Below are positions 7,275 to 58,515 of a stretch of 64,000 bases of DNA, in pieces. The number at the start of each line of letters is the position of its first letter. Positions within the stretch are counted from its first letter, which is position 1. The translations under genes and the position numbers were made by a program. This DNA comes from Ruminococcus sp. HUN007 (GTDB lineage: Bacteria; Bacillota; Clostridia; Oscillospirales; Ruminococcaceae). The notes below the pieces were generated by a model. It ran no database searches, was not told the origin of the DNA, and saw nothing but the letters and a program-made list of their open reading frames with translations. The stretch lies in the NCBI RefSeq assembly GCF_000712055.1, contig NZ_JOOA01000001.1, positions 558,001 through 622,000 on the forward strand. Direction: 5' to 3'.

Positions 7275-7907
7275 TCAGCATTTAAAATTTATATCTATTA
7301 CCCTGTCTGCACTTTCAAGCAGCAGCGGGTCGTGCGAAGCAGCAAGAACCGTGATTCCGTTTTTGTTTACTTCCTTAAGCATATCTCTGACTATTTCGGC
7401 GCTTTCCCTGTCGAGATTTGATGTCGGTTCGTCAGCGATTATTATTTCCGGTTCCGTGACAAGAACTCTTGCAAGCATTGCCCTTCTGTATTCCCCGCCG
7501 GATATCTGTGACGGATATGATCCAAGAAGAGATGTGAGCGAAAGCCTTTCTGCAATTTCCTCTGCTTTTTGTTTATCGGGTTTCTTCTTTGCAGTATATG
7601 CCAGAAACAGGATATTCTGCCAGACGGTCAGTTCCGGAAGAAGAGCATTCTTCTGCATCATGTACCCGATAACACCGCTCCGGAGAGCTGTGCGCTCTTT
7701 TTCGGAAAGCTTTGAAATGTCGGTACCCTTTATGAAGACTGATCCGCTGTCTGGACGGAGCATACCCGTGAGGATATTTAAAAGTGTTGATTTTCCGCAT
7801 CCGGATGCTCCTGCAAGTGCAGCCATCTCACCCTTTTTTACTGTTATGTCCGTGCTTTTAAGCCCGTTTTTTCCGAACAGCTTTGTAATATTTTTTCCTT
7901 CTATCAT
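7275..7907 (-). CDS. ABC exporter ATPase (LolD/MacB type)
   Basis: A 210-residue ATPase with Walker A GASGCGKST, signature ISGGEYRRAMLARVL, Walker B IIIADEPTSNLD and the switch AASHDPLLLE. The short length and N-terminal IEGKNITKLFG place it with LolD/FtsE-type subunits that drive FtsX permeases. Its start overlaps the end of the FtsX gene by 4 bp, so the two form a unit. It likely powers mechanotransmission or export of a membrane-associated substrate. Confidence 0.88.
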   Translation of the reverse strand: MIEGKNITKLFGKNGLKSTDITVKKGEMAALAGASGCGKSTLLNILTGMLRPDSGSVFIKGTDISKLSEKERTALRSGVIGYMMQKNALLPELTVWQNILFLAYTAKKKPDKQKAEEIAERLSLTSLLGSYPSQISGGEYRRAMLARVLVTEPEIIIADEPTSNLDRESAEIVRDMLKEVNKNGITVLAASHDPLLLESADRVIDINFKC

Positions 7908-25059: not shown

Positions 25060-25333
25060 ATGGCACAGACTACTGTAAGTATAAGAATGGACGAAGATCT
25101 AAAAAAGGATTTTGATTCAATATGCAATGATCTTGGAATGACAATGACAACTGCTGTTATAATACTCGCAAAAAAAAATGGCAAGAGAAAAAAGATTGCC
25201 ATTTGAAGTATCTATCGACCCTTTCTACAGCGAATCGAATATGAAAGCTCTCGAAGAAAGTATAGTTCAGATGAAAAACGGCAAAACTGTAACTAAATCA
25301 TTCGACGAACTGGAGTTACTCGCCAATGAATAA
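25060..25333 (+). pseudogene. RelB/DinJ-family antitoxin, frameshift at A9
   Basis: ATG 25060 follows GAAGGAGGG. The N-terminus MAQTTVSIRMDEDLKKDFD then CNDLGMTMTTAVIILAKK is a ribbon-helix-helix RelB/DinJ domain. The frame stops at 25206. Removing one A from the A9 run (about 25169-25177) gives MAREKRLPFEVS...SFDELELLANE, the normal C-terminus of the family, ending at 25333. The natural protein would be about 90 residues. The toxin start overlaps its end (ATGAATAA). Confidence 0.85.
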
Positions 25334-25388
25334 ACTCACTTTCACAGAAAACGCTTTTGATGAATATCTTTACTGGCAGATGTCATAA
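25326..25388 (+). pseudogene. yoeB: Truncated YoeB/Txe toxin N-terminus
   Basis: MNKLTFTENAFDEYLYWQ is the start of Txe/YoeB mRNA interferases, here stopped after 20 codons. The remaining 60 or so residues, including the catalytic ones, are missing. The break coincides with the start of a duplicated segment (25375-25547) that has a second copy at 28376. The locus therefore encodes an antitoxin without an active toxin. Confidence 0.8.
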
Positions 25389-25547
25389 TGAGCATCTGCC
25401 TTTTCTATATATTTACGATCATTAAGCTTCTGAATTCAAAGCATTCTTAGCCTTCTTCTCTTTGATAAGAATATCAGCAAATACCATCGTCATTGCGCCA
25501 AGGGCAAGCCACTCAAATGATGAGATGCTGCTGTATGTTGCTGTCGG
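25375..25547. repeat. Duplicated segment, copy A (terminator plus 3' part of the 74-aa gene)
   Basis: Starts with GGCAGATG...CATCTGCC-TTTTCT (a terminator) and runs into the C-terminal 40 or so codons of the small membrane protein gene. It matches 28376-28548 in the same orientation with only a handful of substitutions. The pair brackets about 2.8 kb of accessory genes. Confidence 0.8.
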
Positions 25548-25646
25548 GCTGAGGATCTCTGAGATGTATCTTACCATTACTGATACTGCTGTAATAACAT
25601 ATCCCATCTTAAAGATTGCATTTCCTATTCTCTGTGACTTTTTCAT
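25422..25646 (-). CDS. Small two-helix membrane protein
   Basis: A 74-residue protein with a basic N-terminus (MKKSQRIGNAIFK), two hydrophobic segments (MGYVITAVSVMVRYI; FEWLALGAMTMVFADILI) and a Lys-rich tail. No family is recognised. It could be a small toxin-like or membrane-anchored peptide. Its 3' half is duplicated at 28.4 kb, where it has no start. Confidence 0.6.
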   Translation of the reverse strand: MKKSQRIGNAIFKMGYVITAVSVMVRYISEILSPTATYSSISSFEWLALGAMTMVFADILIKEKKAKNALNSEA

Positions 25647-25764: not shown

Positions 25765-26462
25765 TTACAGTTTTGTAAGGTTGGTGTGAAACGAGGTTGC
25801 ATTTATAATTGAGGTAGTATAAACAGGTTTGTTCGTAGTAATAATCAGATGTATCCCAGCTTCGTTGCCAGTCATCAAAAGACGTCTGATAACATCTTCG
25901 CTCTTGGCACCATAATCTGCAATAAGATATTCAAATTCACTTATCACCACGATAAAATACGGCAGTTTTTTATATCTGCCATCGTTTTCTGAAATCATCT
26001 TATTATACTCTTCAAGATTGTTTGTTCCCATCTTTGAAAAACAGTTCAAAACGTGTATGCATTTCTCTGATCAGATCATCAAGATACGCTATATGCCATA
26101 ATGAATGATCTCTCGTATTATTTTTGGTATCAATCTCTTTTAATATGATATTCTCATATGGAACCCAATAAAAAATACTTGTAATCATGGAATTGATACA
26201 TGATTTTTCAACAGCATCTTTCGCTCCGATCATCACATGCTTCATCTGTACAAGATCCCCGGTTACAATATTTCCGTCCTTATCCTGACCAATCACTACA
26301 GGGAGTATGCATTCTGAATTACAAAATTTATCACTTTCGATCACATCACGGAGAGTTATTAACTCCTGGTTTTTTATTCTTCTCTAAAACGGTTCCTTTG
26401 CTAAGAAGATCGATAGGAAAATATCCTTCTTTCTTTTCTGATACCTTAACTTCATCGCTCAC
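25765..26462 (-). pseudogene. FtsK/SpoIIIE-like motor fragment with lost Walker motifs, two frameshifts
   Basis: Starts at GTG 26462 after GAGAGGAG. Frames join at A6 (26370-26375) and A5 (26037-26041) by removing one base each. This gives about 230 residues: EGYFPIDLLSKGTVLEK, ITLRDVIESDKF, VVIGQDKDGNIVTGDLVQMKHVMIG, SCINSMITSIFY, RFELFSKMGTNNLEEYNK, GRYKKLPYFIVVISEFEYLI. It matches the FtsK motor core, but the Walker A has become GAKDAVEKS and the Walker B Asp is Ser (VVISEFE for VVIDEFA). The N-terminal membrane part and gamma domain are absent. Either a decayed paralogue or a pseudo-ATPase. Confidence 0.75.
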
Positions 26463-26514
26463 AGAGCATTCTCCTCTCATTTTCAGAATATACTATTGTC
26501 CTGTTCTTAAAAGG

Positions 26515-26549
26515 ATTATAACATGAAAAGTACTGAAAATTCGAAGATA
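26515..26549 (-). promoter_or_regulatory. Promoter with shared ATCTTCGAATTTTCA box
   Basis: On the minus strand TATCTTCGAATTTTCA, 13 bp, then TATAAT, upstream of the FtsK-like gene. The same box with 12-13 bp spacing occurs at 40759, 42366 and 54181. Confidence 0.55.
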
Positions 26550-26585
26550 ATGATATTTTTTTTGCGTCATAGGTGCAATATGATT

Positions 26586-26643
26586 GAACCGGAGCAGTCG
26601 GCTCCGGTTCCACCTTTTATCGGTACGCCTTCGGCGTACTATT
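26586..26643. repeat. Two intergenic palindromes
   Basis: GAACCGGAGC/GGCTCCGGTTC (26586-26610) followed by ATCGGTACGCCTTCGGCGTACTATT. These are members of the two dispersed hairpin families found through 25-54 kb. Confidence 0.7.
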
Positions 26644-26710
26644 ACTCTCAGTATATTGTAAACCATCATTCACGTTCCAATTCCTAATAAATATATTTCC
26701 GCAAAAATAA

Positions 26711-26776
26711 AATATTTTGCCGAAACATATTGCCGATTACTCCTGGATATGTTATAATATATATCGGCAAATAATT
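26711..26776 (+). promoter_or_regulatory. Promoter and inverted-repeat operators of the AbiEi-like gene
   Basis: TTGCCG (26730-26735), 17 bp, TATAAT (26753-26758). ATTTTGCCGA at 26714 and ATTGCCGA at 26728 face TCGGCAAATAAT at 26764, giving inverted repeats around the promoter. AbiEi-type regulators are known to repress by binding such repeats. Confidence 0.55.
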
Positions 26777-39917: not shown

Positions 39918-39958
39918 TAAAAAAATCCGGCAGCCTGAAACCGAACTTCAGCTGCCGG
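39918..39958 (-). terminator. Rho-independent terminator of hairpin RNA array 2
   Basis: On the minus strand CCCCGGCAGC-TGAA...TTCA-GGCTGCCGG followed by ATTTTTTTATG. It is strong and lies at the 3' end of the array, with no gene between, so it defines a noncoding transcript. Confidence 0.8.
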
Positions 39959-40192
39959 GGGTTAAGTTTTTGGTCTTTAGTATAATTTACACGGTACCTG
40001 TCCGAAGACAAACATTCATCAGAAAAATGAGAAACTGCTGTATGTACCGTAGGTTTCACGGTGCCTTGTTTTTTCTTCAGAGGAAAATGAAAACTGCTGT
40101 AAGCACCGTATCTCTTTTTATTCACGGTGCTGTTTTTTTCTTCAGAGGAAAATTAGAACTGCTGTTAGCACCGTATCTGTGTTTCATATCGT
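39959..40192 (-). ncRNA. Tandem hairpin RNA array 2 (standalone)
   Basis: At least three repeated units on the minus strand: [GCACCGT...ACGGTGC]-(A/T)TACAGCAGTT-linker (TTTTCCTCTGAAGAAAAAA). Stems lie at 40168-40194, 40103-40130 (7 bp perfect) and 40044-40064, with starts 59-65 bp apart. A diverged unit is at 39991-40011. The RNA of about 270 nt would start near 40192 (TATACT at 40204-40199) and end at the terminator 39918. The sequence is homologous to array 1 beside DUF2828. No open frame fits. Confidence 0.7.
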
Positions 40193-40198
40193 GTTATT

Positions 40199-40247
40199 AG
40201 TATATCACAGTCAGCAGTTTTTTCACGGCGAAAAAGCTGCGACATCT
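40199..40247 (-). promoter_or_regulatory. Array 2 promoter with conserved upstream block
   Basis: TATACT (40204-40199), exactly 17 bp, then the block 40222-40247, which matches 25 of 26 bases in the array 1 promoter. The block overlaps the 3' end of the phosphatase gene, encoding its last residues. Confidence 0.65.
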
Positions 40248-40696
40248 TTCTGTTTTTGTTTTAGTGCTGAAAGGATCTTTCCGAATACAAGCTGGTTAGG
40301 AAAATATCTTTTGTCTTCGAAGATCTTTTTTCCGTTACATTCGAAATATTCAAGAATGGCCATCGCACATCCCGCACTCCTGCTCTGTCCGTAATCGCAC
40401 TGGCAAATAATATCTTTACCTTCATCATGTGCTTTAAGGATAAATTCCGCTGCCTCTCCCGCCTGCGGGAAAAATGCTTTTATCCCTTCCGGATCATTCT
40501 CAAATGCATCCCAGTCGATATCCGGAATGCAAACATAGAAAACATCATCTGTCACATCAGAATAGTCAACCGGCTGATAACCGGCAGAATGTCCATCCGG
40601 CGGATCGAAAAAAGTGATAACAGCCGTGTTTTTCGGGAATTCTCCGTTTACAATTATTTTGTAAACATCATTTCTTGAAAGTACCGATACGTTCAT
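40223..40696 (-). CDS. Dual-specificity/tyrosine phosphatase-like protein
   Basis: A 157-residue protein with the loop DIICQCDYGQSRSAGCAMAIL, a C-x(5)-R phosphatase signature (CDYGQSR). The preceding sequence (MNVSVLSRNDVYKIIVNGEFPKNTAVITFFDPP) matches its paralogue at 53634. Its C-terminus KQKDVAAFSP is encoded by the conserved promoter block of array 2, which suggests the original end was replaced by that element. It has a promoter with the shared TCTTCGAATTTTCA box. Confidence 0.75.
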   Translation of the reverse strand: MNVSVLSRNDVYKIIVNGEFPKNTAVITFFDPPDGHSAGYQPVDYSDVTDDVFYVCIPDIDWDAFENDPEGIKAFFPQAGEAAEFILKAHDEGKDIICQCDYGQSRSAGCAMAILEYFECNGKKIFEDKRYFPNQLVFGKILSALKQKQKDVAAFSP

Positions 40697-44742: not shown

Positions 44743-46613
44743 GATTAGAGCGTCAAAACAGCGATTTTGACTTTTCAAAATTCCAATAGAATCTTGAAAA
44801 TTTAATATTATTACAAATTATGGATATATCGAAACGTAAATCTCAATATTTAGTAGCTTTCCTTACTCATTTTTCAGGCTATTACCGCATTTTGGGCGCG
44901 GCATGCCGAGCCTTGCATGAATTTGCAAAACTTCTGGATGTTCATAGCAGTTACTTTAGCTCCAAAGAATAGTTTCTTTCGAATCATACCTCTTGCCGGT
45001 ATTTTGTCAACATGATATTTTCTTCGAAGAATGGATGGAAGTGATTCAACACCATTTCGGAATTTAGTTAAGTCACTAAATTCTTTTGTAGAACGTTTTC
45101 TCTGTTGCTGAGCTCTGTTTTTACTTTTTAATGAGACTGTTTTCTTACAAACCTTTACTCTCAAGTTAGGTTTACATTCATTAAAGTGTGGACAGTTTTC
45201 GCACTTTTCTTTATCGAAGGATGCTACACACTGCCCTGTCTTTTTATTGTAGCTGCAGCTTATTGGTTCATGTCCTCCGGGACACTTTAAGATCTGTGTT
45301 CCGTCTTCACTGAATTCAAAATCAGCATTGATATCTGGTGTTTCTTTACCAGTAAGATTAGTGTTTACAATTTCAATGTTTTTTTGATTTTGCTAATGCT
45401 TCATCAGCTGTATATGCACCGTCAGCTACTATTACTGTGCGGTCGTCTTCCGGCTGAGAATTCATTCTTTCCATTGCATCATTGATGAATTTCTTATCAC
45501 TGTAATTGTTTGCTTCAAACTGAAAATCAGTTACAAGCGTATCACCGTTTTCATTTGATGATTCTACTAAATTTGCAGCGTATCCTATATGATTTTTACC
45601 TGCTTTATGGCGAAATGTTGCTTCCGGATCCGCAGGATTCTGAAGTATTGAAGAATCCATACTTGAATCGTCTGCATCTTTAAGCTGACGGATTCCGTTA
45701 GGATATATGTTAGTCTGCTCATTGAGAAAGCGTACCAGCAATTTATATGCACTGCTGTCTTCAATATCTTCATCACACAGGTTCATCAGAATTTTTGCAT
45801 CTTCAAGAATAGTTACAATCTTGCTATCAACAGATTCACTACGATTATGATATACTACTTTATTTCTGTCATCTACATCAGCATAATGCATGTATTCCAA
45901 AGGCACTTCTGCATTACTGCGTTTCATCTCTTTTACAAGGTTTGAAACACATGTATAAAGCAGTTCGAGACGCGACATTTTCTTCACATTTGCAGATATC
46001 ATCATGCTATCCATACGTTTAAGATGATGATCTATTCCCATAACAAGCGCCATAACATCTGTTATTTCTTTTTCCGTATTTTGTATGAGATCTATTCCTG
46101 TTTCAATTTCATACATTGCTAATCTTTCACGAAATCTTCCAAGACTTCTGTCACTAAGGGGCTGTTCATCAAATGATGTTGTGTGAAGTGCATACTGATA
46201 TCTTATGTCAAACAGCAATGATTCAAGAAATTCATCATCGGACTGTCCTGTTAGCTGCTGAATGAATATTGCGCCTACGAGAACGTTTACCGGAGTATTT
46301 GGACGCGATAATTTTTCGCTGTAAAGAACCGCATACGGTGTTTCATCTATTGCAGGAAATACTTTTTCAGCAAATACTTTTGCCCATGATTTTTCTAAAA
46401 ATCTGCGTTCTCTTTCTGTTAAATTCAGCGTGGAATCGAACATTGATATTTGTTCATTCCTTAAATCGTTTGCTACGAATGACATTTCTTTTTCCTCCGA
46501 AATTTGATACTTCTATTGTACCATATTTCGCGTTTTCATTTGTTGTAATAATATTAAATTTTCAAGATGCTTTTGTTGGCTCAGATTGGTCTTACCCTTT
46601 TGACGCCCGAATC
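44743..46613 (-). mobile_element. IS1182-like insertion sequence, copy 1
   Basis: A 1871-bp element. Terminal inverted repeats GATTAGAGCGTCAAAA and GATTCGGGCGTCAAAA match at 14 of 16. It is flanked by a 7-bp direct repeat ATCATAT (44736-44742; 46614-46620). It carries one transposase gene, broken by one extra A relative to copy 2. Confidence 0.92.
44874..46485 (-). pseudogene. IS1182-like DDE transposase, frameshift at A7
   Basis: Same protein as in copy 2 (536 residues), but the tract at 45379-45385 has seven T on the plus strand where copy 2 has six. The first frame ends ALAKSKKH and the remainder continues in another frame to 44874. Domains as in copy 2. If the extra base is an assembly error, this copy is active. 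Confidence 0.9.
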
Positions 46614-50682: not shown

Positions 50683-52552
50683 GATTCGGGCGTCAAAAGG
50701 GTAAGACCAATCTGAGCCAACAAAAGCATCTTGAAAATTTAATATTATTACAACAAATGAAAACGCGAAATATGGTACAATAGAAGTATCAAATTTCGGA
50801 GGAAAAAGAAATGTCATTCGTAGCAAACGATTTAAGGAATGAACAAATATCAATGTTCGATTCCACGCTGAATTTAACAGAAAGAGAACGCAGATTTTTA
50901 GAAAAATCATGGGCAAAAGTATTTGCTGAAAAAGTATTTCCTGCAATAGATGAAACACCGTATGCGGTTCTTTACAGCGAAAAATTATCGCGTCCAAATA
51001 CTCCGGTAAACGTTCTCGTAGGCGCAATATTCATTCAGCAGCTAACAGGACAGTCCGATGATGAATTTCTTGAATCATTGCTGTTTGACATAAGATATCA
51101 GTATGCACTTCACACAACATCATTTGATGAACAGCCCCTTAGTGACAGAAGTCTTGGAAGATTTCGTGAAAGATTAGCAATGTATGAAATTGAAACAGGA
51201 ATAGATCTCATACAAAATACGGAAAAAGAAATAACAGATGTTATGGCGCTTGTTATGGGAATAGATCATCATCTTAAACGTATGGATAGCATGATGATAT
51301 CTGCAAATGTGAAGAAAATGTCGCGTCTCGAACTGCTTTATACATGTGTTTCAAACCTTGTAAAAGAGATGAAACGCAGTAATGCAGAAGTGCCTTTGGA
51401 ATACATGCATTATGCTGATGTAGATGACAGAAATAAAGTAGTATATCATAATCGTAGTGAATCTGTTGATAGCAAGATTGTAACTATTCTTGAAGATGCA
51501 AAAATTCTGATGAACCTGTGTGATGAAGATATTGAAGACAGCAGTGCATATAAATTGCTGGTACGCTTTCTCAATGAGCAGACTAACATATATCCTAACG
51601 GAATCCGTCAGCTTAAAGATGCAGACGATTCAAGTATGGATTCTTCAATACTTCAGAATCCTGCGGATCCGGAAGCAACATTTCGCCATAAAGCAGGTAA
51701 AAATCATATAGGATACGCTGCAAATTTAGTAGAATCATCAAATGAAAACGGTGATACGCTTGTAACTGATTTTCAGTTTGAAGCAAACAATTACAGTGAT
51801 AAGAAATTCATCAATGATGCAATGGAAAGAATGAATTCTCAGCCGGAAGACGACCGCACAGTAATAGTAGCTGACGGTGCATATACAGCTGATGAAGCAT
51901 TAGCAAAATCAAAAAACATTGAAATTGTAAACACTAATCTTACTGGTAAAGAAACACCAGATATCAATGCTGATTTTGAATTCAGTGAAGACGGAACACA
52001 GATCTTAAAGTGTCCCGGAGGACATGAACCAATAAGCTGCAGCTACAATAAAAAGACAGGGCAGTGTGTAGCATCCTTCGATAAAGAAAAGTGCGAAAAC
52101 TGTCCACACTTTAATGAATGTAAACCTAACTTGAGAGTAAAGGTTTGTAAGAAAACAGTCTCATTAAAAAGTAAAAACAGAGCTCAGCAACAGAGAAAAC
52201 GTTCTACAAAAGAATTTAGTGACTTAACTAAATTCCGAAATGGTGTTGAATCACTTCCATCCATTCTTCGAAGAAAATATCATGTTGACAAAATACCGGC
52301 AAGAGGTATGATTCGAAAGAAACTATTCTTTGGAGCTAAAGTAACTGCTATGAACATCCAGAAGTTTTGCAAATTCATGCAAGGCTCGGCATGCCGCGCC
52401 CAAAATGCGGTAATAGCCTGAAAAATGAGTAAGGAAAGCTACTAAATATTGAGATTTACGTTTCGATATATCCATAATTTGTAATAATATTAAATTTTCA
52501 AGATTCTATTGGAATTTTGAAAAGTCAAAATCGCTGTTTTGACGCTCTAATC
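50683..52552 (+). mobile_element. IS1182-like insertion sequence, copy 2
   Basis: A 1870-bp element in the opposite orientation to copy 1 and apparently identical apart from one base in a poly-A tract. It is flanked by a 7-bp repeat TTTGAAT (50676-50682; 52553-52559). It interrupts a YqiA-like hydrolase gene. Confidence 0.93.
50811..52421 (+). CDS. IS1182-like DDE transposase
   Basis: A 536-residue transposase. The N-terminal DUF772-like region has VNVLVGAIFIQQLTGQSDDEFLESLLFDIRYQYAL and LSDRSLGRFRERL. The catalytic core has ALVMGIDHHLKRMDSMMI (first Asp), VIVADGAYTADEALAKSKN (second Asp) and a final region with CENCPHFNECKP. C-terminal RGMIRKKLFFGAKVTAMNIQKF supplies the last helix. GGAGG precedes the ATG. 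Intact. Confidence 0.92.
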   Translation: MSFVANDLRNEQISMFDSTLNLTERERRFLEKSWAKVFAEKVFPAIDETPYAVLYSEKLSRPNTPVNVLVGAIFIQQLTGQSDDEFLESLLFDIRYQYALHTTSFDEQPLSDRSLGRFRERLAMYEIETGIDLIQNTEKEITDVMALVMGIDHHLKRMDSMMISANVKKMSRLELLYTCVSNLVKEMKRSNAEVPLEYMHYADVDDRNKVVYHNRSESVDSKIVTILEDAKILMNLCDEDIEDSSAYKLLVRFLNEQTNIYPNGIRQLKDADDSSMDSSILQNPADPEATFRHKAGKNHIGYAANLVESSNENGDTLVTDFQFEANNYSDKKFINDAMERMNSQPEDDRTVIVADGAYTADEALAKSKNIEIVNTNLTGKETPDINADFEFSEDGTQILKCPGGHEPISCSYNKKTGQCVASFDKEKCENCPHFNECKPNLRVKVCKKTVSLKSKNRAQQQRKRSTKEFSDLTKFRNGVESLPSILRRKYHVDKIPARGMIRKKLFFGAKVTAMNIQKFCKFMQGSACRAQNAVIA

Positions 52553-53633: not shown

Positions 53634-54098
53634 TCATTGTCCAGATAGAAATAGATTTTCGAGAGCATCGAAAACCTTGTGATATACAACCTGATTTGGA
53701 TAGTATCTGTAATCCGTAAAGATATCTATTCCGTTATGGAAGAAGAATTCCTTTATCGCTGCTGCAGTAGCGGCACTGCGGCTCTGTCCATATTCGCACT
53801 GACAAATGATATCCTTCCCGCTCTGATAAGCTTCGTAAATGAACTCGGCGAGATCATTTGCATTCGGAAAGAAGCTTTCGTAGGTATAGCCCTTTTCCGG
53901 AAGATAATCAAGGTCGAGATCATCAAGTTCACAATAGAATACATCATTGCAAACATTGCTGTAATCGACATGAGTATAGTCTTTGTCAATATGATTCAGC
54001 TCCGGATCGTAATAAGAGATCACAGCCGTATTCTCCGGAAAATCTCCTCTTCTGATGATCTCTTCAATTGCTTCTCTTGAATATACTGATACGTTCAT
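53634..54098 (-). CDS. Dual-specificity/tyrosine phosphatase-like protein
   Basis: A 154-residue paralogue of the 40223 protein: MNVSVYSREAIEEIIRRGDFPENTAVISYYDP and the loop DIICQCEYGQSRSAATAAAIKEF (C-x(5)-R). It ends LENLFLSGQ, likely the native family end. It follows a promoter with the shared ATCTTTGAATTTTCA box and is next to the ADP-ribosylglycohydrolase on the same strand. Substrate unknown. Confidence 0.75.
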   Translation of the reverse strand: MNVSVYSREAIEEIIRRGDFPENTAVISYYDPELNHIDKDYTHVDYSNVCNDVFYCELDDLDLDYLPEKGYTYESFFPNANDLAEFIYEAYQSGKDIICQCEYGQSRSAATAAAIKEFFFHNGIDIFTDYRYYPNQVVYHKVFDALENLFLSGQ

Positions 54099-54320: not shown

Positions 54321-55787
54321 TTAGCCAACCTTCGCATATCGTTCGCACATTATCGCTCTGTCCATGACGAGTTCCGGAGTTATTTCTCCGCCCATCATGA
54401 GGTCGAAGAGTGACGGTGAGAAGCCGGATACCAGGGCGGTACCGTTTGTCCCCAGCTTCACAGGGAAGTTTGTCTGCATGCTGTTTACATTCCAGAAAAC
54501 TACCTGCGGAAGCTTGTAGCCGGCATTCTCGTACATCTGACGCATTGTGTCGTAGAGTGTCTGGTCGTTGCCTCCTTTGATACATCCGTCGAATTCCATA
54601 TCGGAAATGATGAACATTTTCGAAGGTATTTCCTCGCAAGGAACATTGTTCTTCACAGCTGTGCCAAGGATGAGACGGAACACCGCTTCGAGGTCGGTAT
54701 TTGCTACCTCGTTATACGACTGGCAGTAACGAACTTTTTCCGTGATGTCCTGACCTGTTACCTCAACAAGCTGCGGATGCATCGAAAATGTTATGAAGTG
54801 ATTTGCAAATGCCCCTTTGTTGTGCTCTGCAAAATATATGCCGAGTGACAGTGCTGCGTCTATCGGACGAACACTGTTTCTTGCACATGTCATTGAGCCG
54901 GATCCGTCGATCACGGCAATGGCATTTTCTTCGCTGTTGGCATATGAAGGGAGGTTCTTCCACGTGAGATCGAGCATCCAGCGTTCCTTGTGATCCATAT
55001 CGTAGTTCGTAAGACACTTACGTACTACATCATACGGATAGAGCGTATCTGCATGCATCGTTACGGTGCCATGCTCTACTGCCTGCAGGAAATTGGTGTA
55101 TCTTTCCCCGTCGTTACGAATGAATGCTTTTCGGTACTTGAACATCGCACCGGATGACTGCTTGCTGTAGTCGAAGGTGTAGTCTGCAGTACGGAGACGG
55201 TTCTCGATAATATCCGAGTTCTTACGGAGTTTCGAGAGAGTCTTACGGTATTCGCTCTCGGACATGCCGAGAAGCTTTGCGATGCGGCGGCCGTTTTCGC
55301 GTGTCTCCTTTGATGAGGCGTTTACTGACGGAAGCCACTTTGCAAGAAGCGAAACCTGTCCGTCTTCTGACATGGACTTACAGTCAGCAGAAAGCTGTCT
55401 CTTTATTATCTCCACTGCTTTCTGCTCGCATGGTGTTCCAAGAAGAGCGCAGAGGTCGTCGTATCTTCCGTATTCGCAGAAATATTCCGCATTACGAAGA
55501 ACTGCATCCGGAACTTCTTTTGCAAGAAGCTTAACAGCCTCACGGAAGAATCTTCTTTCGCCAAGGCCACCGCGGATATCACGTGCAAAGAAGATAATCT
55601 TCATTGTACGTACCGGATCTTCCGCATATGCACGGCGTACTGCTGCGGCGATATCCTCAGAAGAGGCATTTCTCATAGCGCCTGCACGGAAGAACAAATC
55701 GAGACATTCCGAATTACTTGTCGAATATGTCTTAGCGCCGTTGAATGTGTTTTTGACAGTTGATTCGTTCTTTAATAATTCTAACAT
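54321..55787 (-). CDS. DUF2828 protein (Ro60/TROVE-like repeats plus vWA domain)
   Basis: A 488-residue protein. The helical N-terminal part (about 1-290: LDLFFRAGAMRNASSEDIAAAVRRAY, TMKIIFFARDIRGGLGERRFFREAVKLLA, YGRYDDLCALLG) resembles the HEAT-like ring of Ro60/TROVE proteins, which bind misfolded and Y RNAs. The C-terminal vWA domain has the MIDAS motif AIAVIDGSGSM plus FIISDMEFDG. GAGGAGAA precedes the ATG. The tandem hairpin array is directly upstream on the same strand and two WYL regulators diverge from the shared region. I infer a Ro-type ribonucleoprotein whose RNA is the array. Confidence 0.8.
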   Translation of the reverse strand: MLELLKNESTVKNTFNGAKTYSTSNSECLDLFFRAGAMRNASSEDIAAAVRRAYAEDPVRTMKIIFFARDIRGGLGERRFFREAVKLLAKEVPDAVLRNAEYFCEYGRYDDLCALLGTPCEQKAVEIIKRQLSADCKSMSEDGQVSLLAKWLPSVNASSKETRENGRRIAKLLGMSESEYRKTLSKLRKNSDIIENRLRTADYTFDYSKQSSGAMFKYRKAFIRNDGERYTNFLQAVEHGTVTMHADTLYPYDVVRKCLTNYDMDHKERWMLDLTWKNLPSYANSEENAIAVIDGSGSMTCARNSVRPIDAALSLGIYFAEHNKGAFANHFITFSMHPQLVEVTGQDITEKVRYCQSYNEVANTDLEAVFRLILGTAVKNNVPCEEIPSKMFIISDMEFDGCIKGGNDQTLYDTMRQMYENAGYKLPQVVFWNVNSMQTNFPVKLGTNGTALVSGFSPSLFDLMMGGEITPELVMDRAIMCERYAKVG

Positions 55788-55844
55788 AACAATTCTCCTC
55801 TTCTGATTTTTTATTTATTTAATTTATATTCTTTCCATAATCAT

Positions 55845-56161
55845 GTCTGCTTAAAACAGACGCTCTGAAACAGCAAGGTTCCTTCCAAACAATTAAAAAT
55901 GATAATGCTGTATGTACTTTTTTCAAAGTACAACCATTATATATTTTTTCATCAATATAGGCTCGGCTGTATGCACCTTTTTCAAGGTGCGAGCAGTTTA
56001 TAGATTCTTTTCAAAAATATAGCTTGGCTGTACGCACATTTTTCAACGTGCAATTGAATTTGTAACCTGTACCTTTTCCACGGTGCCTGTCTTATAGACA
56101 TCTTCAATTTTCAGTTGAAATAAGAAACTGCTGTATGCACCGTATCTCCGTTTCAGAGCGT
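55845..56161 (-). ncRNA. Tandem hairpin RNA array 1, upstream of DUF2828
   Basis: Read on the minus strand, hairpins lie at 56137-56163, 56069-56086, 56034-56051, 55973-55990, 55914-55931 and a small one at 55845-55861. The third to fifth are GCACGTT-GAAA-AATGTGC, GCACCTT-GAAA-AAGGTGC and GTACTTT-GAAA-AAAGTAC: GNRA tetraloops with compensatory stem changes and one G-U pair. Most stems are followed by (A/G)TACAGC. Spacing is about 40-68 bp. No T tract separates it from the DUF2828 start, so it may be the mRNA leader, a processed RNA, or both. Confidence 0.7.
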
Positions 56162-56167
56162 GTTCTT

Positions 56168-56216
56168 AGTATAGCACAAACAAATCGGATTTCACGGAGA
56201 AAAAGCTGCGACATCT
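56168..56216 (-). promoter_or_regulatory. Array 1 promoter with conserved upstream block
   Basis: TATACT (56173-56168), exactly 17 bp, then TTCACGGAGAAAAAGCTGCG and ACATCT on the plus strand (56191-56216), shared with array 2. It lies 60 bp from the divergent WYL start, so it probably holds the WYL operator. Confidence 0.65.
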
Positions 56217-56275
56217 CATGACCTTGAAAAAATTGCTGTAATAAGGTATACTTATCATACAAGGGAGGGATTTTG

Positions 56276-57535
56276 GTGAGCACATTTTCTGAACTTATCA
56301 AAACATTCAGCCGTACCCGCGACTATGTGCGGGACTTTTTTATCTACGGCTGCAAGGTTCGTGATGATTTCAAACACAAGAGCAGCCGAACTTATGACGA
56401 CGAACGCCGACGCACGGAAAGCTGGCTCGGTGACTATATAAATCATGATGATTCAAAACGAGGCAGACAGATAAGCATGTCGGTGGACAGCGGACATATA
56501 ACTGAAAACCCGCTGTATCAGGCTTACTACGCAAAGAGTTTCACGGATAACGACATAAAACTTCATTTCTTCCTGATTGACCTTCTTGCAAACGGAAAAC
56601 AGTTTACTTCACAGGAACTTACTAATCTTCTTTTTAGGAAATACGATTTTTATCTCGATGAAAAAACTGTCCGCACAAAACTTAAGGAATATTCAGACGA
56701 GGGACTTTTCATCTGTGAAAAGGAAGGCAGAACACCGTATTACAGTATTTCACCGGATACTTTCGATGAAATGTCCGGACGTTATCCCGGACTTAAAGAT
56801 GCTGTAAGATTCTTTTCCGAGATACAGCCTTTCGGGGTTATCGGAAACAGTATTCTTAAAAGCTGCGATATGCAAAACGACAGATTTATCATGAAGCACA
56901 ACTACATCGCCCGTACTCTGGAAGATGACATACTCCTTGATATTCTTGAAGCCATGCGTTCTGAACGTTCAGTAAAACTTAAAATCTTTCCGGCACGTTT
57001 ATATCTTTCAGAAAACACAAAGGAACTGAACCGGATCTGCGTTCCGATGAAGATAAGCACATCTGCCCAGACCGGACGGCGATATCTGATAGTATATACG
57101 CCGAATAAGAACAGCTTTGATTCCATAAGGCTCGATTATATAAAAGAGGTCAAACCGGATGAACCGTGTCCGGAATATTCAGCTCTGATCGAAAAGCTGA
57201 ATGAAGAACTCACGCACGTTTTCGGCATTTCATTTTCCGGAAGAAACGGTACGGAGGAGATAACTCCTCTGCGCATAACGATGCATATTTCTCCTGAGGA
57301 ATACTACATTTTCGACCGTGTGAAACGTGAAATAAGATACGGAAAAATTGAGCAGACCGGCGAAAACACCTATCTGCTCACGCTTGATATATATGATCCA
57401 AAAGAAGCTGTTCCGTGGATAAGGACATTCACCGGAAGGATCATTTCGGTTGAAGGAGAAACTGAAGAGATATGCAGACAGTTCCGGACTGATACCGAGG
57501 CCATGGCCAAGCTCTATGGGGAGGTGCAGGCATGA
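56276..57535 (+). CDS. WYL-domain transcriptional regulator 1
   Basis: About 419 residues, start GTG 56276 with AGGGAGGG at good spacing (a TTG lies one codon earlier). The N-terminus has RDYVRDFFIYGCKVRDDF and YDDERRRTESWLGDYI, a pattern shared by WYL proteins of Ruminococcus. A winged helix follows at about 90-160 (LHFFLIDLLANGKQFTSQELTNLL, TVRTKLKEYSDEGLF) and then the WYL domain (about 225-330: ILLDILEAMRSERSVKLKIFPARLYLSENTKE, RRYLIVYTPNKNSF). WYL domains sense nucleic acids or nucleotides. Overlaps the second WYL gene by 4 bp. Confidence 0.85.
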   Translation: MSTFSELIKTFSRTRDYVRDFFIYGCKVRDDFKHKSSRTYDDERRRTESWLGDYINHDDSKRGRQISMSVDSGHITENPLYQAYYAKSFTDNDIKLHFFLIDLLANGKQFTSQELTNLLFRKYDFYLDEKTVRTKLKEYSDEGLFICEKEGRTPYYSISPDTFDEMSGRYPGLKDAVRFFSEIQPFGVIGNSILKSCDMQNDRFIMKHNYIARTLEDDILLDILEAMRSERSVKLKIFPARLYLSENTKELNRICVPMKISTSAQTGRRYLIVYTPNKNSFDSIRLDYIKEVKPDEPCPEYSALIEKLNEELTHVFGISFSGRNGTEEITPLRITMHISPEEYYIFDRVKREIRYGKIEQTGENTYLLTLDIYDPKEAVPWIRTFTGRIISVEGETEEICRQFRTDTEAMAKLYGEVQA

Positions 57536-58515
57536 ACATATTTCATGAGATATACGGCACTTACTTCCGTATCGTAAAACACCTGCTTAAGCGCAGACGC
57601 ATGACGGAATCAGAACTGAATTCGGTTATAATCGATGAAGGATACCGCGACTCGTGCCTTTTCCTGCAGCCGAGACTGATACCTAACGCTGACGGATCTG
57701 ACTGGGGACTTTTCCGGAAAAACGATGACGGAACACTTTCTGCCAACACAAAGAACGATCCGCAGTCTCCTCTCACTCTCCTTCAGAAAAGATGGCTCCG
57801 CACAAAGCTTGATGATCCGCGTATCCGTCTGTTCCTGTCGGATGATGAGTACTCCGGTCTTACGGAAGAACTAAAAGATACTGCTCCTCTTTACACTTAT
57901 GAGATGCTTTATTTCTACGACCAGTTCAGTGACGGTGATCCGTTTGAAGACAGGAAATATAAAATGCATTTCCGTGAGATACTTACTGCACTGCGCGAAC
58001 GAGAGATACTTGATGTGTCATACCGTTCAGGGAAAGGCAATGGAAAGCGTCTGCGCGTTGTCCCGTTCTACATCGAATACTCAGAGAAGAATGACAAGAT
58101 TCGTGTCCACTGCATTTTTCCGTTCAGTGAGCAGAAAGAGAATTTCATCATACTCAATATCGGACGTATTCTTTCACTGAAACGCACAGGAATTTTCTTT
58201 TCAGGTGAAATTGATTCAGAGGCATGCTTCCGCCAGACCCGCTGTGAAGAACCGGTCACTGTCCGCATAAATCCGGAACGCAACGCTCACGAAAGATTTA
58301 TGATGGAATTTGCGCCGTATGAAAAGCGCACAGAACTTGATACGGAAACCGGAGTGATGACAGTACAGCTCTGGTACGACAGCCTCGATGAAACTGAAAT
58401 ACTCATCCGCCTGCTCGGATTCGGTCCGATGCTTGAAATTGTTTCGCCGCCAGATTTCCGCAAACAGGCCGTCGAAAGAATAAAAAGACAGTGCGAAATT
58501 ATGAAGAGTGAATAA
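57532..58515 (+). CDS. WYL-domain transcriptional regulator 2
   Basis: A 327-residue protein coupled to the first. The N-terminal 60 residues (IYGTYFRIVKHLLKRRRMTESELNSVI) may be a degenerate HTH. The WYL core is HFREILTALREREILDVSYRSGKGNGKRLRVVPFYIEYSEKNDKIRVHCIF, followed by the WCX-like C-terminal part (IEVRIN-like strands VTVRINPERNAHERFMMEFAPYEKR). Tandem WYL genes recall PafB/PafC, which work as a heteromeric activator. Likely controls the array/DUF2828 promoter. Confidence 0.82.
   Translation: MNIFHEIYGTYFRIVKHLLKRRRMTESELNSVIIDEGYRDSCLFLQPRLIPNADGSDWGLFRKNDDGTLSANTKNDPQSPLTLLQKRWLRTKLDDPRIRLFLSDDEYSGLTEELKDTAPLYTYEMLYFYDQFSDGDPFEDRKYKMHFREILTALREREILDVSYRSGKGNGKRLRVVPFYIEYSEKNDKIRVHCIFPFSEQKENFIILNIGRILSLKRTGIFFSGEIDSEACFRQTRCEEPVTVRINPERNAHERFMMEFAPYEKRTELDTETGVMTVQLWYDSLDETEILIRLLGFGPMLEIVSPPDFRKQAVERIKRQCEIMKSE

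Follow-up and report, generated by a model that had tools for sequence, protein, structure and literature searches.

We analysed a 64,000-nucleotide stretch of the Ruminococcus sp. HUN007 genome (contig NZ_JOOA01000001.1, positions 558,001 to 622,000 of the forward strand; hereafter the window), in which a gene for a DUF2828 protein lies beside arrays of short repeated elements and a pair of WYL-type regulator genes (Table 1). The sequence-only reading of this DNA had described a DUF2828 gene, small hairpins upstream of it on the same strand, and two coupled WYL genes running divergently, and this layout was borne out. Array B lies between the DUF2828 gene and the WYL pair, on the DUF2828 strand. 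Array A (39990-40174, minus strand) is 16 kb from array B and comprises three regular units; the terminator-like site that follows it suggests a stand-alone RNA gene. No further match to the array covariance model described below was found in the window up to an E value of 10, and in the organism's own genome, under stricter filters, all four matches at E ≤ 0.01 fall in arrays A and B.

Table 1. Features of the DUF2828 locus and its two arrays, in window coordinates
Feature	Position	Strand	Description
DUF2828/DUF7788 protein gene	54321..55787	-	Predicted Ro60 fold: helical ring and vWA domain with putative MIDAS residues
Array B open unit 1	56079..56143	-	7-bp stem, NN, ACAGCA, insert, stem, G; array model E 8.8e-06
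Array B capped hairpin 1	56027..56051	-	7 nt-GAAA-7 nt-NN-ACAGC
Array B capped hairpin 2	55966..55990	-	7 nt-GAAA-7 nt-NN-ACAGC
Array B capped hairpin 3	55907..55931	-	7 nt-GAAA-7 nt-NN-ACAGC
Array B promoter box, conserved	56190..56212	-	-10 TATACT at 56168-56173; compare relative L040
WYL-type regulator 1 (WYL1)	56273..57535	+	Divergent from DUF2828 gene
WYL-type regulator 2 (WYL2)	57532..58515	+	Weak WCX domain; 4-bp overlap with WYL1
Array A open unit 1	40123..40174	-	Array model E 1.3e-06
Array A open unit 2	40057..40109	-	Array model E 3.6e-07
Array A open unit 3	39990..40050	-	Array model E 8.1e-06
Array A promoter box, conserved	40221..40243	-	-10 TATACT at 40199-40204
Intrinsic-terminator-like hairpin and T-run, 3' of array A	39921..39958	-	

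The repeated unit and its distribution

In the DNA upstream of DUF2828 genes in relatives, the unit takes the form of a 7-nt 5' strand, NN, ACAGCA, an insert, a complementary 7-nt strand, and G. The 5' strand is often AAGGCAC-like, the insert measures 14 to 241 nt (median 53; 299 units), and the A of ACAGCA is present in 281 of the 299. Our bacterial set consisted of the best 80 of 123 confirmed loci (identified by L numbers); all of them have an 8-residue peptide pattern in common with the protein of the window. At least one strict unit was present within 4 kb upstream on the same strand in 79 of these 80 loci, the nearest unit ending no more than 300 nt from the DUF2828 gene in 72 of the 79. 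The upstream DNA (288 kb) held 301 strict units, whereas the rest of that strand held 25 and the opposite strand 41 (1.09 Mb in all); block-shuffled upstream DNA held none.

The 301-unit set, the 299-unit statistics, the 65-unit alignment, and the T-arm, insert-family, and phage counts all concern units selected for pairing. Because the strict units had been selected in this way, partners were also sought for ACAGCA sites taken without selection for pairing. Within 1.5 kb upstream, 262 of 350 sites have a downstream 7-nt partner, as against 42 when stems were swapped and 12 when letters were shuffled; elsewhere, such partners accompany 20 of 411 sites on the same strand and 14 of 483 on the other. 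The 65-unit alignment displays double-sided changes at all seven stem pairs (129 cells, versus 30.5 ± 6.1 in shuffles), and sliding its partner strand by one column reduces pairing from 100% to about a third. Among the 299 units there are 59 distinct 5' stems, with pairing kept, and the two ends of the unit, 5' and 3', pair into a basal stem both in relatives and in array A. These comparisons show the arrays to be series of same-strand units with a predicted, covarying 7-bp stem that carries NN-ACAGCA on one side and is followed by G on the other. The array covariance model was built from 65 of 79 units, themselves chosen, at most five per stem, from 122 with inserts of 22 to 48 nt.

Sibling inserts differ within a locus: for 284 of the 295 units with siblings, the closest insert is in another locus, and one insert family can be shared by as many as 16 loci. 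The array comprises distinct putative RNAs that are conserved as a set, unlike a spacer store undergoing turnover. A genome-wide dispersed repeat was considered and rejected; of 12 pattern matches with at most two mismatches, the four with zero or one are all in the arrays and the eight with two lie elsewhere (control, 4).

The three hairpins of array B stand in the opposite phase, with the G-bearing strand first, then GAAA, then the NN-ACAGC strand; in the predicted pairing, the capped hairpin is the unit helix closed at its other end. When defined by a loop of 3 to 5 nt with G as its first base, capped hairpins occur three times upstream in the 80 bacterial loci, all in L040, which is near-identical to the window, and nowhere else on either strand. 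The 83 viral loci have 16 upstream, 5 elsewhere on the same strand, and none in reverse. A looser search (loop of 3 to 12 nt, any first base, 163 loci) returned 27, 22, and 10, respectively; this definition is therefore less specific, and part of its matches are due to chance. A chain of hairpins as the general form of the array was rejected, since upstream-phase partners were no more frequent (28 of the 350 ACAGCA sites) than with swapped stems (32). The hairpin array of the sequence-only reading thus survives in part: its hairpins look like a genuine capped variant, found in array B and some phages, and are not the general form of the unit.

DUF2828 is present in 27 of 297 genomes of the family. 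The array model matches 22 of the 297, namely 21 of the 27 with DUF2828 and 1 of the 270 without, positives that are not fully independent because some training units come from the same 297-genome set; the lone match in a DUF2828-free genome (G130) looks, on reading, like chance. PF11443 was found in 6 of 348 genomes in a wider sample of the phylum. Relatives of DUF2828 also occur in 671 of 50,697 phage records. Our viral set of 83 loci consisted of the best 80 of at least 591 confirmed plus three phage records, and 49 of the 83 have units within 4 kb upstream (134 units, with 66 elsewhere on the same strand and 11 on the other strand). Five more phages, of Mycobacterium, Escherichia, Klebsiella, Staphylococcus, and Campylobacter, hand-picked from 40 listed of the 671 and read with up to two G-U pairs allowed, have two to four units beside the gene, downstream of it in four of the five. 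Two additional units in L271, of which one falls within the gene and the other on the reverse strand, were taken as chance.

A predicted Ro60-like protein and tRNA-like units

Structure prediction for the full-length DUF2828 protein yielded a helical-repeat ring and a vWA domain in the Ro60 arrangement, the Ro-like ring that the sequence-only reading had anticipated. By this prediction the window protein has a Ro60-like fold, and we regard it as a distant relative of human Ro60. The DxSxS, T, and D residues of the vWA domain, which we take to be its metal ion-dependent adhesion site (MIDAS) motif, are invariant in 65 sequences. The TROVE profile (PF05731) did not match the window protein, for which only DUF2828 and DUF7788 were reported, and no TROVE match was found in the organism's own genome. 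Because only those two profiles match, we call the protein Ro60-like and not a member of the TROVE Pfam family. Eight short TROVE loci (about 3 kb, partial TROVE matches), considered as possible carriers of the same units, contain two strict units: one in L253, on the gene strand, whose stem is atypical and whose 179-nt insert overlaps the gene region, and one in L154, on the strand opposite the gene. The Ro-likeness of the family is not new in phage annotation, since PHROGs names the phage relatives "RNA-binding protein" (phrog_850) and several mycobacteriophage records name them "Ro-like RNA binding protein."

A T-arm was recognized in 51 of the 301 bacterial and 28 of the 134 viral units (shuffled means, 0.7 and 0.4). 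Some inserts resemble tRNAs in natural order without acceptor ends, corresponding to positions 5 to 66 of the 71 in the Rfam tRNA model (L086, L091, and L110). Other units resemble circularly permuted tRNAs, in which the T-arm, the acceptor strands as a hairpin, and the D-arm follow one another and the unit stem replaces the anticodon arm. A simple pattern for the permuted form found 8 bacterial and 11 viral units (shuffled controls, 2.1 and 1.25), and the cleanest cases by eye are L081, L078, L084, L173, L174, L212, and L250. These permuted units are laid out as published for bacterial YrlA, with D, T, and acceptor arms on a basal stem (PMC8394870). The Rfam YrlA model (RF02553) aligns over its full length with L081 at 7787-7883 (E 2.7e-09, 53.6 bits) and with L174 at 150-252 (E 7.8e-05, 38.2 bits). 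The likeness to YrlA, a basal stem with a T/acceptor/D-arm domain, is confined to a subset of relatives (L081, L174, L250, and others); the units differ in their ACAGCA/G signature, which is absent from the YrlA consensus, and most of them, all window units included, have no T-arm. A YrlA search of the organism's own genome gave two sub-threshold matches outside the arrays and is uninformative, because 7 of 14 control genomes also match. We conclude that a subset of units in relatives is shown to carry predicted tRNA-like domains of the Y RNA/YrlA kind. In the phages of L272, L273, L250, and L275, units are interspersed with or adjoin tRNA genes, and this proximity could explain the entry of tRNA pieces into units.

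WYL genes, RtcB, and a conserved box

Neighbours were counted among open reading frames of at least 70 amino acids within about 6 kb. WYL1 accompanies 56, WYL2 53, and RtcB 42 of the 80 loci; RtcB was confirmed by Pfam for three members, and an RlaP-like family is present in five loci, with one member confirmed by Pfam. Because many contigs are short, the counts were then restricted to the 57 loci with 5.8 kb or more of upstream sequence; a WYL gene is present in 46 of these and RtcB in 35. By these counts, tandem WYL genes and RtcB are shown to be frequent neighbours. RtcB also adjoins the units' locus in Listeria phage LP-048.

A putative promoter box, TTCGCARMTTTTTTT..CRTGAWW, followed after about 17 nt by TATAMT (26 aligned sequences), precedes both window arrays. 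Of the 80 loci, 36 have its strict form upstream, on the same strand as DUF2828; the two occurrences elsewhere are both directly before WYL1, and it was never found on the other strand in the 80 loci. The stem of the next ACAGC starts no more than 60 nt from the -10 element in 25 of the 36 box loci (random expectation, 15%). Eight of the remaining 11 have an rtcB frame that starts within 60 nt of the -10 element or spans it, and in the last three the first unit lies 179 to 298 nt further on. A search of the organism's own genome with the window's own box sequence, not the general pattern, at up to three mismatches returned exactly two occurrences, those of arrays A and B. A looser box, searched in 12 related genomes, gave 14 matches in 11 of them (backwards control, 2). 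Seven of the eight exact matches lie inside DUF2828 loci collected here; of the six one-mismatch sites, three are at such loci and three are not. Together, these positions show that the putative box precedes arrays, an rtcB gene, or WYL1. The eighth exact match, in Oscillibacter valericigenes (G646; L270 5864-10877), comes after a second pair of WYL1 and WYL2 genes (Pfam WYL, E 8.1e-09; WCX, E 3.3e-05; both above cut-off) and is itself followed by a Band-7 gene (E 2.5e-28) and an RtcB frame (E 4.6e-44, model positions 140-425 only), an arrangement which suggests that the WYL pair and the box control more than one RNA-repair module.

The structural model of WYL1 is weak, with a predicted local distance difference test score below 50 at residues 1-93 in the N-terminal region; its best structural matches are DriD, CapW, PafBC, and BrxR. 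PafBC-like activators combine wHTH, WYL, and WCX domains, and of these the WCX domain is weak in WYL2. PafBC and DriD are WYL activators that bind single-stranded DNA (PMC11804915, PMC12340889). Apart from their place among the best matches to the model, the tandem WYL genes here resemble the PafB/PafC heterodimer, and the promoter, like theirs, has a good -10 element and an atypical -35 region; unlike theirs, the target here would be an RNA locus and not DNA-repair genes.

Two DSPc-like phosphatase genes, apparent paralogues with Pfam DSPc matches below cut-off, lie one by each array: 53634-54098 (minus strand), downstream of DUF2828, and 40223-40696 (minus strand), directly before array A, where the end of the gene overlaps the box. 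Neither DSP-like phosphatase nor ADP-ribosylglycohydrolase genes next to DUF2828 were accepted as parts of the system, as BLASTP found them in 0 of 80 loci. Between the arrays lie two copies of a DDE-type transposase gene, at 50811-52421 (plus strand) and, shortened, at 45373-46485 (minus strand), whose translations match by eye across most of the shorter copy; these copies may be related to how arrays A and B became separated.

Proposed function and relation to known systems

We consider it likely that the locus encodes a Ro ribonucleoprotein with array RNAs, regulated by the WYL proteins and acting in the decay or repair of damaged structured RNA. That the array holds the genes for the RNA partner of the DUF2828 protein, as the sequence-only reading proposed, is supported by its presence at 79 of 80 loci, by its co-occurrence with DUF2828 in family genomes (21 of 27 versus 1 of 270), and by the predicted Ro fold. 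In the scheme we propose, the units would be transcribed, and the DUF2828 ring would dock on the stem with ACAGCA/G. The insert, which varies, would serve as an effector or gate domain and determine what the ring encounters, either linking it to tRNA-handling enzymes (PNPase, tRNA modification enzymes, or RtcB) or covering the surface with which it binds RNA. Like PafBC or DriD, the WYL pair may sense a nucleic-acid damage signal, and once activated would raise the levels of the array RNAs, DUF2828, and, in relatives, rtcB. The output would be faster decay or repair of broken structured RNA (tRNA or rRNA), most likely tRNA. This damage-signal scheme is drawn by analogy with Deinococcus, where a Y RNA joins Rsr to PNPase for the decay of structured RNA, and with the Salmonella rsr-yrlBA-rtcBA operon, which is regulated by damaged tRNA (PMC7790460).

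Several observations weigh against this proposal. Sequence profiles provide no link between DUF2828 and Ro60, and the DUF2828 profile has no match in the PDB. The T-arm pattern is found in none of the window units and is missing from 250 of the 301 bacterial units; the window units have no match in Rfam at the gathering threshold; the YrlA scores of L081 and L174 are under the Rfam gathering value of 69 bits; and the other units in the five loci searched with the YrlA model, including the permuted unit of L250, gave no match at E values up to 3. Two of the hairpin stretches of array B can also be read as eroded open units (one mismatch, or two G-U pairs). The array model has no match in 6 of the 27 DUF2828 genomes, and one of the 80 loci, L094, from a metagenome-assembled genome named uncultured Chloroflexi, has no strict unit (L084, from another so named, has two). 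Among the 57 loci with sufficient upstream sequence, a WYL gene was not found in 11 and RtcB was not found in 22; the strict box is missing from 44 of 80 loci; and the single RtcB of the organism's own genome lies outside the window, so it is not encoded in the locus.

The main functional rival, which we think unlikely, competes with the role in decay and quality control and not with the Ro/Y-RNA identity: it holds that the array RNAs are tRNA mimics which the DUF2828 ring holds and stabilises as decoys for tRNA-cutting toxins or for phage or host anticodon nucleases, with RtcB mending the cuts. The units among or adjoining tRNA genes in several phages (L250 by Rfam), the RtcB and RlaP neighbours in relatives, and RtcB in phage LP-048 would all suit such decoys, and according to a published proposal the tRNA-like domain of YrlA competitively inhibits an anticodon nuclease (PMC7790460). 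However, the T-arm is missing by pattern from those 250 bacterial units and from every window unit, and insert types are kept between species, although faster turnover might be expected of decoys caught up in an arms race.

It is considerably less probable that the repeats work as DNA, with the WYL proteins binding them as operators, or as an attenuator in the DUF2828 mRNA leader, and are not separate RNA partners. Array B does sit between the promoter box and DUF2828, palindromes can serve as dimer sites, and the nearest unit is generally close to the gene (no more than 300 nt away in 72 of 79 loci). Yet array A has its own box and terminator-like site, about 220 bp apart, units lie downstream of DUF2828 in four of the five further phages, and units can hold tRNA-like folds. 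In addition, the stems vary while pairing is kept (59 distinct 5' stems in 299 units), unlike a fixed operator, and the separate conserved box would suit the operator role. That the units are decaying tRNA genes or mobile repeats without function, near DUF2828 by accident, is scarcely credible: some units are tRNA-like and array B looks eroded, but the strand and position specificity of the units, their co-occurrence with DUF2828 across family genomes, the compensatory stem changes, the conservation of insert types across species, the presence of units in unrelated phages, and their confinement to two places in the organism's own genome all argue otherwise.

The statement of the sequence-only reading that no described system with this layout is known held only for its combination of tandem WYL genes and multiple units, of which no description was identified among the open-licence PubMed Central papers listed; rsr-yrlBA-rtcBA is a functional analogue, and several phage relatives are already annotated as Ro-like. 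Like the locus as we interpret it, the Salmonella system brings together a Ro60-fold protein, Y RNAs (one a tRNA mimic), the RtcB ligase, and a dedicated regulator (PMC7790460). The differences are that the protein here is DUF2828 and not TROVE/Rsr, with no sequence match; that each array has several units, as opposed to two Y RNAs; that the Ro-side motif is ACAGCA...G; that tandem WYL genes are the neighbouring regulators, with a promoter box and a sigma-70-like -10 element, in place of RtcR (a CARF and sigma-54 activator, for which no direct search was made); and that rtcB is not adjacent in this window.

For Listeria phage CKA15, the authors of a 2025 study used HHpred to connect CKA15_055 with Rsr and suggested nearby Y RNAs (PMC12282133). 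We found CKA15_055 to be a DUF2828 relative with three units just upstream (record positions 25289-25552). It and the phage Ro-like proteins of phrog_850 thus belong to the same protein family, with the same units alongside; the array unit is not defined in the accessible part of the CKA15 paper, and what the bacterial loci have in addition is a tandem WYL pair, the promoter box, and a conserved gene order. The most transcribed non-coding region of CKA15 spans 26,236-26,727, and its authors discussed a small interfering RNA or a Y RNA (PMC12282133). A ROOL RNA match (RF03087, 90.1 bits, gathering 99.1, E 1e-17) at L259 1961-2512, equivalent to about 26195-26746 of OR088597.1, coincides with that region and not with the three units; a ROOL match is likewise present in phage LP-048 (L249 4460-5011). 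Chen et al. 2014, as cited in PMC12282133, described Y RNAs in diverse bacteria and mycobacteriophages, a set that may include DUF2828 loci.

A broader hypothesis, to which we give an even chance, is that DUF2828 represents a second, sequence-undetected Ro60 branch in Clostridia and hundreds of phages, with stem-NN-ACAGCA...stem-G as its family-wide RNA signature. Each array would supply different adaptor RNAs (natural-order tRNAs, permuted tRNAs, hairpins, and a capped permuted docking helix) for one WYL-controlled ring, switched between partners or substrates in an RtcB RNA-repair regulon. The analysis gives a probable function to DUF2828, whose relatives span 671 of 50,697 phage records, and makes available a sequence signature for the likely RNA partner of the whole protein family. 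Dozens of bacterial and phage loci, each with several natural variants, together with a candidate regulator and promoter, allow direct tests, in culturable hosts and well-studied phages, of the docking rule, of what tRNA mimicry contributes, and of the connection with RNA repair.

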